NCBI RefSeq assembly: GCF_013215705.1
Contig: NZ_JABSQR010000006.1
Span: 62,001-126,000, forward strand
DNA from: Moritella sp.
Lineage (GTDB): Bacteria; Pseudomonadota; Gammaproteobacteria; Enterobacterales; Moritellaceae
DNA: 64,000 nt
Direction: 5' to 3'
The position numbers were made by a program, and so were the translations under genes. The notes below the pieces were generated by a model, which was not told where the DNA came from, made no database searches, and saw only the letters and a list, made by a program, of their open reading frames with translations. Of the stretch, positions 12,928-19,742 are shown one piece after another; positions within the stretch are counted from its first letter, which is position 1; every line of letters starts with the position of its first letter.

Positions 12928-15900
12928 TTACTTAATGCGAGTATGTAACTCTTGTATTGAACGAACAGTACCACGGGCATCGGCAGAGTGCGCTTGGCAC
13001 GTTGCAAATGCTGCATTCATTGTGGTTGTGTAGTTCACTTTATAACGTAAAGCAGCTGCACGTAGTTGACGAGAATCTTCAATCGCAACACGACCTTCAG
13101 TCGTATTAATGATGTAGCTGTATTCGCCATTTTTGATACGGTCAAGAATATGAGGACGACCTTCATGTACCTTGTTAACTAGACGAAGATTAATACCTGC
13201 TTCACCTAGCGCAACGGCAGTACCGTGAGTTGCATCAATCTCAAAACCGAGTTCAATTAACTGCTTCGCTAATTCAGCTGCGCGCGCTTTATCACCGTTA
13301 CGAACAGAGATAAGTGCACGACCACTCTTAGCAACTTCAGCAGAAGCACCAAGCTGTGCTTTAGCATAAGCTTCAGCAAAGGTATCACCCACGCCCATTA
13401 CTTCACCAGTAGAACGCATTTCAGGGCCAAGTAACGGATCTGAACCTGGGAACTTACCGAATGGTAATACTACTTCTTTAACAGAGTAATATGGAGGAAT
13501 CACTTCTTCAGTGAAACCAAGTTCAACTAACGTTTGACCCGCCATGACACGTGCAGCAATTTTTGCTAATTGCACACCCGTTGCTTTTGAAACAAAAGGA
13601 ATCGTACGTGCAGCACGTGGGTTTACTTCAATCAAGTAAACTTCATTATCTTTCACCGCGAACTGGGTATTCATTAGACCAATAACACCTAGCTCTAATG
13701 CTAACGCACGTACTTGGTCACGCATAACATCCAGAATTTCAGGGCTTAATGAATGAGGAGGTAATGAACAACCGGAGTCACCTGAGTGAACACCTGCTTG
13801 TTCAATGTGCTCCATGATGCCGCCAATAACAACATCTTTACCATCACAGATTGCATCAACGTCAAGCTCGATTGCGTTATCTAGGAAACGGTCAAGTAAT
13901 ACTGGTGATTCGTTAGAAACACTGACCGCTTCTTTGAAGTAACGACGTAAATCGATTTCGTCATATACAATTTCCATTGCACGGCCACCAAGTACATATG
14001 ATGGACGAACAACTAACGGATAACCGATACCTTCAGCTGAAATAACCGCTTGCTCAGTCGTTGTTACCGTCGCATTGTCAGGCTGTAACAAACCTAAACG
14101 CTCAACCGCTTGTTGGAAGCGTTCACGATCTTCAGAACGGTCAATCGCATCCGGTGATGTACCTATGATTGGTACGCCAGCTGCTTCTAATTCACGCGCT
14201 AGTTTAAGGGGTGTTTGACCACCGTACTGAACGATCACGCCTTTCGGTTTTTCAATACGCACGATTTCTAATACGTCTTCTAGTGTAATAGGTTCGAAGT
14301 ATAAACGATCAGATGTATCGTAATCAGTTGAAACCGTTTCAGGGTTACAGTTAACCATGATAGTTTCGTAACCATCTTCACGCATTGCTAATGCCGCGTG
14401 TACACAGCAGTAATCGAATTCGATACCTTGACCAATACGGTTAGGACCGCCACCGATGATCATGATCTTATCGTTATCTGTTGGGTTTGCTTCACATTCT
14501 TCATCGTAAGTAGAATACATGTAAGCGGTGTCACTTGAGAATTCAGCGGCACAAGTATCGACACGTTTGTAAACCGGAAAGATCTCTAAACGATGACGTA
14601 ATTTACGGATTTCATTTTCACTTACACCAGCAAGTTTACACAGACGTAAATCAGAGAAACCTTTACGCTTAAGTTGACGTAATGACGTTTCGTTTAGACC
14701 CGCTAAACCAATTTTACTGACGTTTGCTTCAGCGTTAACAATGTCTTCGATTTGCACTAAGAACCAAGGGTCAATACATGTGATCGCATAGATCTCATCT
14801 GTTGACATGCCAATACGGTAAGCATCCGCTATATAGAAGATACGCTCAGCGCCCGCTTCTGTTAGCTCTTGACGGATCTTAGCTGCTGCAGACTCGTCGT
14901 TTAAGTTCACTTCTGGATCAAAACCGTTCTTACCGATTTCCAGGCCACGTATTGCTTTTTGCATTGACTCTTGGAAGTTACGACCAATCGCCATGACTTC
15001 ACCCACAGATTTCATCTGGGTAGTTAGACGGTCATTCGCACCGGCAAATTTTTCGAAGTTAAAGCGTGGCATCTTAGTGACCACATAATCCAGTGTTGGT
15101 TCAAATGATGCTGGCGTTGCACCACCTGTAATATCATTGGATAGTTCGTCTAACGTGTAACCAACCGCTAGTTTTGCCGCAATTCGAGCAATTGGGAAAC
15201 CCGTTGCTTTTGATGCAAGTGCAGATGAACGAGATACGCGTGGGTTCATCTCGATGATGACCATACGGCCATCAGCTGGATTGATACCGAACTGTACGTT
15301 TGAACCACCTGTTTCTACACCAATTTCACGTAGAACAGCCATCGATGCATTACGCATGATCTGGTATTCTTTATCCGTGAGAGTTTGCGCTGGTGCCACC
15401 GTAATTGAGTCACCGGTGTGGATACCCATTGGGTCAATGTTTTCAATGGTACAGACGATAATGCAGTTATCGTTTTTATCACGTACAACTTCAGTTTCGT
15501 ATTCTTTCCAACCAATTAGTGATTCATCGATCAATAGTTCAGTTGTTGGTGAAAGGTCTAAACCTAACGTACAAATGTCTTCAAACTCTTCCATGTTGTA
15601 AGCGATACCGCCACCCGAACCACCCATAGTGAATGATGGACGAATAATACACGGGAAACCAACTTCAGCTAGCACGCCTTTTGCTTCTTCTAGAGTGTGT
15701 GCGATACCAGCGCGAGGCGTTTCAAGACCAATGGCTTTCATTGCTTTGTCAAAACGGCTACGGTCTTCCGCTTTATCAATCGCGTCAGCTGTTGCGCCAA
15801 TCAGTTCAACGTTAAACTCTGCTAAAACACCTTTGCTGTCTAGCTCAAGTGCACAGTTTAATGCTGTTTGACCACCCATTGTTGGTAAGATCGCATCTGG

Positions 15901-16146
15901 ACGCTCTTTTTTAATGATGTTACGTACAACTTCCCAATGGATCGGCTCGATGTAAGTCGCGTCCGCCATTTCTGGGTCAGTCATAATGGTAGCTGGGTTT
16001 GAGTTAACTAGAATAACTCGGTAGCCTTCTTCACGAAGTGCTTTACAAGCTTGAGCACCGGAATAGTCAAACTCACACGCTTGACCAATTACGATAGGAC
16101 CTGCGCCCAAGATTAGAATACTTTTTATATCATTACGTTTTGGCAT
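12928..16146 (-). CDS. carB: Carbamoyl-phosphate synthase large subunit
   Basis: 1072 residues (E. coli 1073). It makes carbamoyl phosphate from ammonia (delivered by CarA), bicarbonate and two ATP, feeding pyrimidine and arginine synthesis. Two homologous ATP-grasp halves are visible: [19 protein letters not shown] and [11 protein letters not shown] in the first, [18 protein letters not shown] and [11 protein letters not shown] in the second. The C-terminal MGS-like allosteric domain follows. It is separated from carA by 27 bp, so co-transcribed. Confidence 0.99.
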
Positions 16147-16173
16147 AGTTCAATTCTCTACTAGGTATCAGGC

Positions 16174-17319
16174 TTAGGCTTGGCTTTTTTCCATACTCTT
16201 TTCCATCAACTCTATAAAGTGATTGAAAAGTGGAGCTGCATCGTGTGGACCAGGACTTGCTTCAGGGTGACCCTGGAAGCTAAATGCAGGTTTATCTGTA
16301 CGATGAAGACCTTGTAAAGAGTCATCAAATAATGATTTGTGCGTCATTATTAGATTGTCAGGTAATGTGGTTTGATCAACTGCGAAACCATGGTTCTGCG
16401 CCGTAATCATCACTATGCCACGTTCCAAGTCTTTTACAGGATGGTTAGCACCGTGATGACCGAACTTCATTTTTAATGTTTTAGCACCACTTGCTAATGC
16501 AAGTAATTGGTGACCTAAACAAATACCAAATACTGGAATATCTGTAGTCAAAATTTCTTTGATTGCTGCGATTGCATAATCACACGGTTCTGGATCACCG
16601 GGGCCGTTTGATAAAAACACACCGTCAGGGTTTAATGCCAGTACATCTTTCGCCGATGTTTGCGCAGGGACAACCGTGATACGGCAGCCGCGATCAACTA
16701 ACATACGTAAGATATTGCGCTTAACACCATAATCATAAGCAACCACGTGGAAGCGAGAGTCTGTCGCATCAGCTGGTAAACCACCCATTAATGTCCAGCT
16801 ACCTTGGTTCCATTCGTATGCTTCTTTCACTGTTACTTCTTTCGCTAAATCCATGCCTTTTAGGCCAGGGAATGCTTTAGCAAGTTCTAATGCTTTCGCT
16901 TCATCTATACTTTCACCTGCGATGATACAACCCGCTTGCGCACCTTTTTCACGTAAAATACGGGTAAGTTTACGGGTATCAATATCAGCGATGCCAACAA
17001 CATTACGTTCTTTTAGATAGTCAGTAAGTGATTGTTGATTACGGAAATTAGAAGTAACTAAAGGAAGATCTCGAATGATTAGTCCACAAGCATGAACATC
17101 TGAAGATTCTGCATCTTCATCATTTGTACCGGTGTTTCCGATATGTGGGTAAGTGAGAGTAACGATTTGGCGAGAATAGGAAGGATCGGTTAATATTTCT
17201 TGATAACCCGTCATTGAAGTATTAAAAACTACTTCACCTACCGAATGACCTTCTGCACCGATAGACACACCACGGAATACTGTTCCGTCTTCCAACACCA
17301 ACAAGGCGATATTACTCAA
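16174..17319 (-). CDS. carA: Carbamoyl-phosphate synthase small (glutaminase) subunit
   Basis: Class I glutamine amidotransferase subunit that hydrolyses glutamine and channels ammonia to CarB. The C-terminal domain has the catalytic cysteine in [16 protein letters not shown] and the His/Glu pair in [12 protein letters not shown] place the start at a TTG at 17319, five bases after GGAGG, giving 381 residues (E. coli CarA 382). The TTG at 17331 lies within the ribosome site itself. E. coli carA is known to start at UUG too. First gene of carAB. Confidence 0.97.
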
Positions 17320-17391
17320 GACAACCTCCAAAAAATAGATAGAAAAATAATAAAATAAATCAACTATTTACCCCAGGCTGTCACACAGCAT

Positions 17392-17501: not shown

Positions 17502-18320
<819 letters not shown>

Positions 18321-18436: not shown

Positions 18437-18475
18437 AAAAAAACCCGCTATTCTAATTGTTAGAAGGCGGGTTTT
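18437..18475 (-). terminator. Terminator of the 36-residue protein gene
   Basis: AAAACCCGC pairs with GCGGGTTTT and an inner TTCTAA-TTG-TTAGAA stem, followed by T7 on the minus strand. It lies 20 bp past the stop of the small gene and ahead of dapB, so a separate short transcript ends here. Confidence 0.85.
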
Positions 18476-18495
18476 GTTATACTGAATATTAGCAA

Positions 18496-18606
18496 TCAAC
18501 CGAAGATACCAAATAGGCCAGCCCATAGGTGCATCGTTGGTATTGTTAAAAACACAATTAAAAATACTAATGCATATTTCCAGTTAAAATCGTTATACGT
18601 TGCCAT
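18496..18606 (-). CDS. Probable 36-residue single-span membrane protein
   Basis: An ATG at 18606 opens 36 codons ending in TGA at 18496. The product starts MATYNDFNWKY, continues with a 14-residue hydrophobic stretch (ALVFLIVFLTIPTM) and ends HLWAGLFGIFG. That layout is a short hydrophilic N-terminus, one membrane span and an aromatic/glycine tail. Support comes from its own strong terminator just downstream and an exact FNR palindrome 18 bp upstream. The ribosome site is weak (GGAT or TGAG). It is not a fragment of a neighbour. The function is unknown; small subunits of respiratory complexes are one class with this shape (speculation). Confidence 0.68.
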   Translation of the reverse strand: MATYNDFNWKYALVFLIVFLTIPTMHLWAGLFGIFG

Positions 18607-18623
18607 TACTCATTATCCATCAA

Positions 18624-18637
18624 TTGATCTAAATCAA
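18624..18637. promoter_or_regulatory. FNR-type palindrome
   Basis: TTGATCTAAATCAA matches the FNR consensus TTGAT-N4-ATCAA at every fixed position. It lies 18 bp before the start codon of the 36-residue gene. Such closeness suits repression or a site overlapping the promoter better than classic activation at -41.5. A related CRP/FNR-family regulator could also use it. Confidence 0.65.
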
Positions 18638-18802
18638 AAATCATCTTACCTAAATAATATTAGCTCAGCAGCAACTATATCAGCCACACAACAAATTTAT
18701 ATCTTTATAGGTAGTTCAAATTTAAGATATTACGACTAATGAAAAAACGCAGAGCATGCAGATATAGTACCAACGAATGAACTAAAAGCATATTTCAGAC
18801 AT

Positions 18803-18842
18803 AAAAAAACGCCTTGCTCATATCGCGATGAACAAGGCGTTT
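18803..18842 (-). terminator. Terminator, probably the original one of fklB
   Basis: AAACGCCTTG pairs with CAAGGCGTTT over a 16-nt loop, with T7 on the minus strand. The nearest upstream minus-strand gene is fklB, 280 bp away, with a palindromic element lying between. The likely history is insertion of the element between fklB and its terminator. Confidence 0.75.
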
Positions 18843-18850
18843 AGCTAGTT

Positions 18851-19113
18851 TATACCCAAGCTACGTCAAGATGCACAATCAGCAAACCGAATGAAGAGTA
18901 TATTCAAGGCATGAAGTCGAGGATTTAGTTATTCTAAATCAAGACTTCATAACGCCGAAGATGCCTTCATTCGTTTTGCCCTACGGGAGGCGAGCAGGAA
19001 TAACAGCACAGCGTTGCAATATTTGAAAATGGATAACCATTATCTACATATTGCGCCTTGTTCTGTTATCCCTGCTCGTCTCTGATATAGCATCTTGAAG
19101 TAACTTGGGTATA
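18851..19113. mobile_element. 263-bp nested palindromic element (MITE-like repeat)
   Basis: The ends are 24-bp inverted repeats (TATACCCAAG...TCAAGATGC), matching at 22 of 24 positions. Inside are two further long palindromes: one built on GCAAACCGAATGAAG near 18892 and its inverse near 18970, with inner GGATTTAG/CTAAATC arms. The other is built on GAGCAGGAATAACAG near 18993 and its inverse near 19070. There is no open frame. Similar TATACCCAAG-bounded repeats are, from memory, frequent in Vibrio/Photobacterium-type genomes. No second copy lies in this window. Confidence 0.7.
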
Positions 19114-19124
19114 TATAGGACTAA

Positions 19125-19742
19125 TTAGATGATGTCTAATAGTTCTACTTCAAATACTAGCGCTTGGAATGGACCGATTGCAGCGCCTGCGCCCTGTTCG
19201 CCATAAGCAAGGTTGTGTGGGATAGATAGCTTGAATTTATCACCAACGTTCATTAGTTGTAGTGCTTCAGTCCAACCAGCGATAACGCCGCCAACTGGGA
19301 ATTCAGCAGGTTGACCACGTTCAACAGAGCTGTCAAATACAGTACCGTCAGTTAGCATGCCATGGTAATGAACACGCACTGTAGATTCTGCAGTTGGTTT
19401 TTCCTCGATGTCGCCACGAGCGATAACTTCATACTGTAGACCAGATTCAGTTACAGTAACTTCTTCACGCTCTGCATTTTCAGTTAGGAACTTTTCGCCT
19501 TCAGCAGCAAATATTTTAGACTTTTCAGCTTTTTCAGCTTCTAATTTCTCATGGATCAGTTTAAAAGCATCGTTTAGCTCTTCATCGCTAACTTTGCTGT
19601 CTACACCAGCGAACGCATCAGCAAGACCAGCTTGAACAGCTGAAATGTCTAGACCTTCGAATGGATTAGCAGCAAGCTGTTGACCCATTTGTAGACCAAT
19701 ACCGTAACTACCTTTTTGTTCACTTGTTGCAAATTCAGACAT
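19125..19742 (-). CDS. fklB: FKBP-type peptidyl-prolyl isomerase, FklB/FkpA type
   Basis: About 205 residues from the ATG at 19742, which has GGAAG eight bases before it; an upstream in-frame extension to 19826 lacks support. The N-terminal dimerisation domain has SYGIGLQMGQQL. The FKBP domain has VRVHYHGMLTDGTVFDSS, GVIAGWTEALQLM and IPHNLAYGEQGAG. There is no signal peptide, so it is likely cytosolic as for E. coli FklB (206). It catalyses proline isomerisation during folding. It is followed by the palindromic element. Confidence 0.95.
   Translation of the reverse strand: MSEFATSEQKGSYGIGLQMGQQLAANPFEGLDISAVQAGLADAFAGVDSKVSDEELNDAFKLIHEKLEAEKAEKSKIFAAEGEKFLTENAEREEVTVTESGLQYEVIARGDIEEKPTAESTVRVHYHGMLTDGTVFDSSVERGQPAEFPVGGVIAGWTEALQLMNVGDKFKLSIPHNLAYGEQGAGAAIGPFQALVFEVELLDII

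Follow-up and report, generated by a model that had tools for sequence, protein, structure and literature searches.

The 64 kb window, the whole stretch of 64,000 nucleotides of Moritella sp. DNA that we analyzed, carries on its minus strand a 36-codon gene that, by sequence comparison, is the Moritella branch of an unnamed family of small membrane proteins from related, mostly marine bacteria. Our best explanation of the whole, which we put forward tentatively, is that the family encodes an aerobic small protein, repressed by FNR and accessory to the cytochrome c/cbb3 branch.

The reading frame (18496..18606, minus strand, 36 codons plus stop) starts with an ATG at 18606 and stops at 18498-18496; its product, obtained by reading-frame analysis of the window, is MATYNDFNWKYALVFLIVFLTIPTMHLWAGLFGIFG, with a single predicted transmembrane helix. 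A sequence-only reading had already placed a 36-residue, single-span frame here, which stands, without giving its strand; the plus-strand reading of 18496-18606 is closed by many stops. The frame is present in all 11 Moritella genomes, with 89-100% identity, and the 27 variable columns among them fall 4, 4 and 19 on the first, second and third codon positions, respectively (binomial p = 9e-5). With pN at 0.021 and pS at 0.286, dN/dS across these genomes is about 0.07. The frame is thus conserved through the genus with mostly synonymous changes, as the sequence-only reading had anticipated for a true gene, and its counter-case, conservation as an RNA structure only, does not agree with 19 of 27 variable columns being third positions. 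AlphaFold2 modeled the single peptide as one helix spanning residues 2-35 (mean pLDDT 88). The frame is short, and its own promoter and terminator resemble a small-RNA unit, features that would suit a small RNA or a chance frame lying between the two. This is nevertheless very improbable given the third-position substitutions, the dN/dS of 0.07 and a wider family with a conserved peptide; in Rfam, moreover, the region had no match above the gathering score, only sub-threshold chance matches. The frame is almost certainly a real protein gene, and we infer that it is translated, from a monocistronic unit, into a single-span inner-membrane protein. The Moritella peptide as a single query matched nothing in Pfam or NCBIfam, and no match for the gene was found in phage records. 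Among named sequence records, a degenerate DNA pattern for the N-terminus matched those of Moritella only.

Within Moritella the surroundings of the gene are stable. An intrinsic terminator (18437..18475, minus strand), in which a U-tract comes after a stem of about 34 nt, is kept in all 11 genomes at -14.6 to -19.1 kcal/mol; the stem begins about 21 nt past the stop codon. The stretch downstream of the gene has a folding energy of -21.9 kcal/mol (z = -5.7 relative to 200 shuffled sequences), in agreement with the strong T-tailed terminator that had been noted about 20 bp after the stop, and this terminator is not among the elements listed by a consensus terminator scan of the window. Downstream, the same strand continues with dapB (17502..18320) and then carA-carB (12928..17331, minus strand), and the upstream neighbor is an fklB-type peptidyl-prolyl isomerase gene (19125..19742, minus strand) with a terminator of its own from the window scan (18807-18842). 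DapB and FklB flank the small gene in 11 of 11 Moritella genomes. A MITE-like element of 263 bp, bounded by imperfect terminal inverted repeats of 32 nt (TATACCCAAG...), lies between fklB and the small gene at window positions 18851-19113, and in genome G005 a 95% copy of it lies between the small gene and dapB.

Relatives outside the genus were reached through weak seeds. A Moritella-only profile run over 394 genomes of the order gave weak results that were mostly noise, and most of its matches were dismissed as chance. Among them were full-length small frames just upstream of apt-dnaX or ybaN; these had E-values of 0.009-0.06, which are not significant alone, and they were admitted only after synteny, operator and a leave-Moritella-out test. 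A profile built from the apt/ybaN-linked frames plus Moritella then recovered about 120 small frames across the order, with hardly any genome having more than one (when a profile contains Moritella, its E-values for Moritella are not independent), and 78 members from other families were read. Given such weak seeds, three additional tests of homology were made, using hhalign, a non-Moritella HMM and synteny. The Moritella alignment matched the alignment without Moritella with 97% probability over 29 columns, and an HMM built on 74 distinct members from outside Moritella scored the window frame at E=7.3e-10 in a set of 1738 six-frame fragments, where the next best scored 0.15. An HMM of members from one bacterial family, f11, also ranked it first, weakly (E=0.015 vs 0.016 for the next), so that sequence alone does not link the Moritella frame to f11 in particular. 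(The f-numbers are family labels within the order, and taxonomic names for families other than Moritella are ones that we infer.)

About 92 of the 217 genomes of the order have one copy of the gene, and the consensus of its products is approximately M-x(3-5)-FK[DE]P[FY]N-x2-YFLGFL-x-VL-x2-PTLPA-x-L-x-W. Two genomes (L097/G243, L098/G365) hold a divergent variant in which GIGCLN replaces PTLP in the helix, with synteny unchanged. Among 274 genomes of the class, the search gave no member from beyond the order. Twenty members had no meaningful match in Pfam or NCBIfam, the family profile had no relevant match among PDB sequences up to E=10, and the literature text searched contained none of three family peptide motifs. 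The gene is likewise unmentioned in the searched text of three FNR regulon papers (PMC1805755, PMC3223726, PMC3078092).

Outside Moritella and f11, nearly every family has the gene immediately upstream of (ybaN-)apt-dnaX, often behind a DUF2063/BufC gene. It is found directly upstream of carA-carB in f11 and upstream of dapB-carA-carB in Moritella, and in both the region upstream of apt holds no such frame. Moritella therefore shares its neighborhood with the rest of the family through the (dapB-)carAB site common with f11, not through apt, and the simplest story would be one relocation in the common line of Moritella and f11. In f21 (L075, L083, L084, L101, L163-L166 and others) the gene is kept close before ybaN, with which it may be co-transcribed. 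The conserved synteny with ybaN-apt-dnaX and the single helix could also describe a small membrane protein outside any respiratory complex, a regulator or stress protein interacting with a transporter or protease and under oxygen control for some other reason, the usual neighbors ybaN and apt perhaps hinting at a different role. We consider this unlikely. The gene has its own terminator in Moritella, f5 and others, and in Moritella and f11 it sits elsewhere yet retained its operator; a relocated gene with these features does not require the ybaN-apt neighborhood.

That operator is a perfect FNR-type palindrome at 18624..18637, TTGATCTAAATCAA (TTGATTTAGATCAA on the minus strand), with 17 nt between it and the ATG; the 64 kb window has no other perfect TTGAT-N4-ATCAA. 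The full FNR consensus noticed earlier shortly before the start was thus recovered, and it is perfect in 11 of 11 Moritella genomes even though its spacer differs (TTAG, TTAT, ATAT). Across the family, 42 of 89 members have a perfect box within 120 nt of the ATG, vs 0.035 expected from first-order Markov shuffles. Besides Moritella, perfect boxes were observed in f12 (4 of 4), f11 (10 of 12), f9 (6 of 8), f15 (2 of 3, plus one near match), f20 (2 of 6), f6 (4 of 16, plus three near matches) and f5 (3 of 17). None of the 11 f21 members has one; neither FNR-type nor CRP-type operators were found there, and the operator is also absent in parts of f6, f9 and f20. The feature by which FNR-regulon members are recognized in sequence, a conserved TTGAT-N4-ATCAA palindrome at the predicted promoter, is present at the small gene, which is very probably under the control of an FNR/CRP-family regulator.

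The position of the box bears on the direction of this control. Candidate -10 elements, assigned as consensus matches and conserved within the genus, lie just upstream of the operator on the minus strand (18643..18659), either TAAGAT (18648-18643) or TATTAT (18659-18654). Relative to start sites predicted in this way, the box is centered at 0 in f9, +12 in f5 and f12, +4 or +8 in f11, about +5 to +16 in Moritella, -28 in f15 and -48 or -50 in f6. All of these registers overlap the polymerase footprint of the predicted promoter, and no lineage places the center at the activating -41.5 or -61.5. Since the box overlaps the predicted promoter and is mostly too near the ATG for activation, FNR should repress, and with FNR active without oxygen the protein should be made in air. 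Anaerobic FNR dimers would bind the palindrome covering the region of transcription start and block RNA polymerase, leaving the gene on with oxygen and off without it. An upstream FNR box is usually read as a site of anaerobic activation, a reading to which the perfect consensus lends itself and which the distance to the ATG permits in f6 and f15. In Moritella, f5, f9, f12, f20 and most of f11, however, the box center is at most 43 nt before the ATG, so that a class II start would land at or inside the reading frame, and activation seems rather improbable. Judged by this geometry, repression by FNR is the probable outcome. The earlier proposal of an oxygen-regulated small membrane protein thus keeps its conserved FNR-type operator, whose position predicts anaerobic repression and not induction.

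The FNR-repressed genes of aerobic respiration in E. coli include ndh and cydAB. The small gene would resemble these in having an FNR site over the core promoter and repression without oxygen; it differs in encoding an uncharacterized small protein and in an operator whose register varies by lineage and which is of CRP type in most of f5.

In f5, probably the Shewanellaceae (loci L151-L162, L076, L080), 3 genomes have an FNR-type operator and the other 14 a CRP-type one (TGTGA-N6-TCAC), a pattern with a chance of about 0.5% per upstream region. In 12 of the 14, the CRP-site center lies 22-25 nt past the first base of the -10 hexamer, and the three FNR boxes lie at 24. With the CRP site mostly at the spacing of the FNR box, the f5 operator seems to have changed its reader in place, and the same operator position would usually be read by CRP in this family. 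The cco (cbb3) and cyd (bd) operons of S. oneidensis are under direct cAMP-Crp control and are repressed by high cAMP (PMC4830989), which fits the logic that a CRP-type operator in f5 would have. The apparent change from FNR to CRP at a fixed promoter position would be a neat natural case of regulatory rewiring.

The distribution of the gene points to a possible partner. Among the 217 order genomes, 92 have the small gene and 133 have CcoO/FixO; both are present in 90, cbb3 only in 43, neither in 82 and the small gene only in two, both of them incomplete (75% and 60% complete). The association is strong (Fisher p = 7e-25, a value inflated by relatedness). More telling than this test across 217 genomes is the contrast among the five f15 genomes, three of which have the small gene and cbb3 and two neither, with nqrA kept in all five; the contrast may be a single event. 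At the locus in one f15 genome without cbb3 (L114, G024; compare L113, G048), BufC almost abuts ybaN and the small gene is missing. NQR was dropped as a discriminating partner, being present in many lineages, and in f15 genomes, without the small gene. The cytochrome c/cbb3 branch is the partner that we would name from co-occurrence, with less than even confidence, and the small protein would sit beside, or help assemble, the oxidase of this branch. The earlier idea of a respiratory-complex subunit accordingly gains the co-occurrence with cbb3 (90 of 92), and as a subunit the protein is still putative.

The relation to cbb3 has clear bounds. Families f3, f7, f13, f14, f16, f23 and f25 are cbb3-positive and have no detectable copy, and with 43 cbb3 genomes lacking one and none found outside the order, the small protein cannot be a general cbb3 subunit. 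The gene was not seen inside any cco operon. Nor is the product CcoQ/FixQ: it is not encoded within ccoNOQP and has no FixQ domain match, and in the window's genome a separate 63-residue frame occupies the ccoQ position between ccoO and ccoP. This genome also has two perfect FNR boxes ahead of ccoN, at distances of about 200 and 250 nt (L129, G000:C5:179000-189000, reverse strand). The absence from 43 cbb3 genomes would equally suit an FNR-repressed gene whose partner is another aerobic membrane complex (bc1, a dehydrogenase, or bd in the manner of CydX/CydH), which would make the cbb3 link a by-product of shared lineage history. Where cbb3 was lost, bc1 or other c-type components may have gone with it; cbb3-less lineages may also be without other c-type respiration genes, and the co-occurrence data here do not separate a link to bc1 or cytochrome c from the one to cbb3. 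Against such a partner, NQR does not discriminate, being kept where the protein is absent (f15 included), and the protein has no similarity to the solved small subunits of respiratory complexes among PDB sequences. We regard another complex as a possible partner, though a doubtful one.

Small subunits of known oxidases offer a comparison for the cytochrome c/cbb3 reading. The protein is similar to CcoM, a 36-residue subunit of the Pseudomonas stutzeri cbb3 oxidase (PMC10433244), in its size, its single helix, a gene apart from the cco operon and a link to cbb3, which for the small protein is one of co-occurrence only. It differs in belonging to a different clade and in having no sequence similarity to CcoM in the PDB profile search (up to E=10). 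The CcoM gene is itself located away from the cco operon, and a CcoM chain is present in the PDB. A CcoM-like accessory subunit or assembly helper of cbb3, of unrelated sequence, spread through many mostly marine Gammaproteobacteria and with an operator at or just behind the start site that switched in place between FNR and CRP, is conceivable, though we would not call it likely. CydX and CydH/YnhF of cytochrome bd are also small single-span proteins (about 30-40 residues for CydX/CydH) of oxygen respiration. Unlike these, the family has no Pfam, NCBIfam or PDB match (20 scanned members and the family profile), its identified locus neighbors are other genes, and its distribution tracks cbb3; the Pfam/NCBIfam scan of the 20 members gave no CydX (YbgT family) identity.

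Annotation often overlooks small membrane proteins, several of which have proved to be needed subunits of respiratory enzymes. The family described here is cleanly distributed, suggests a partner that can be tested and is predicted to be regulated contrary to what an FNR box usually implies. If its place in the cbb3 branch is true, the small protein would be a missing piece for Moritella and related, mostly marine genera.
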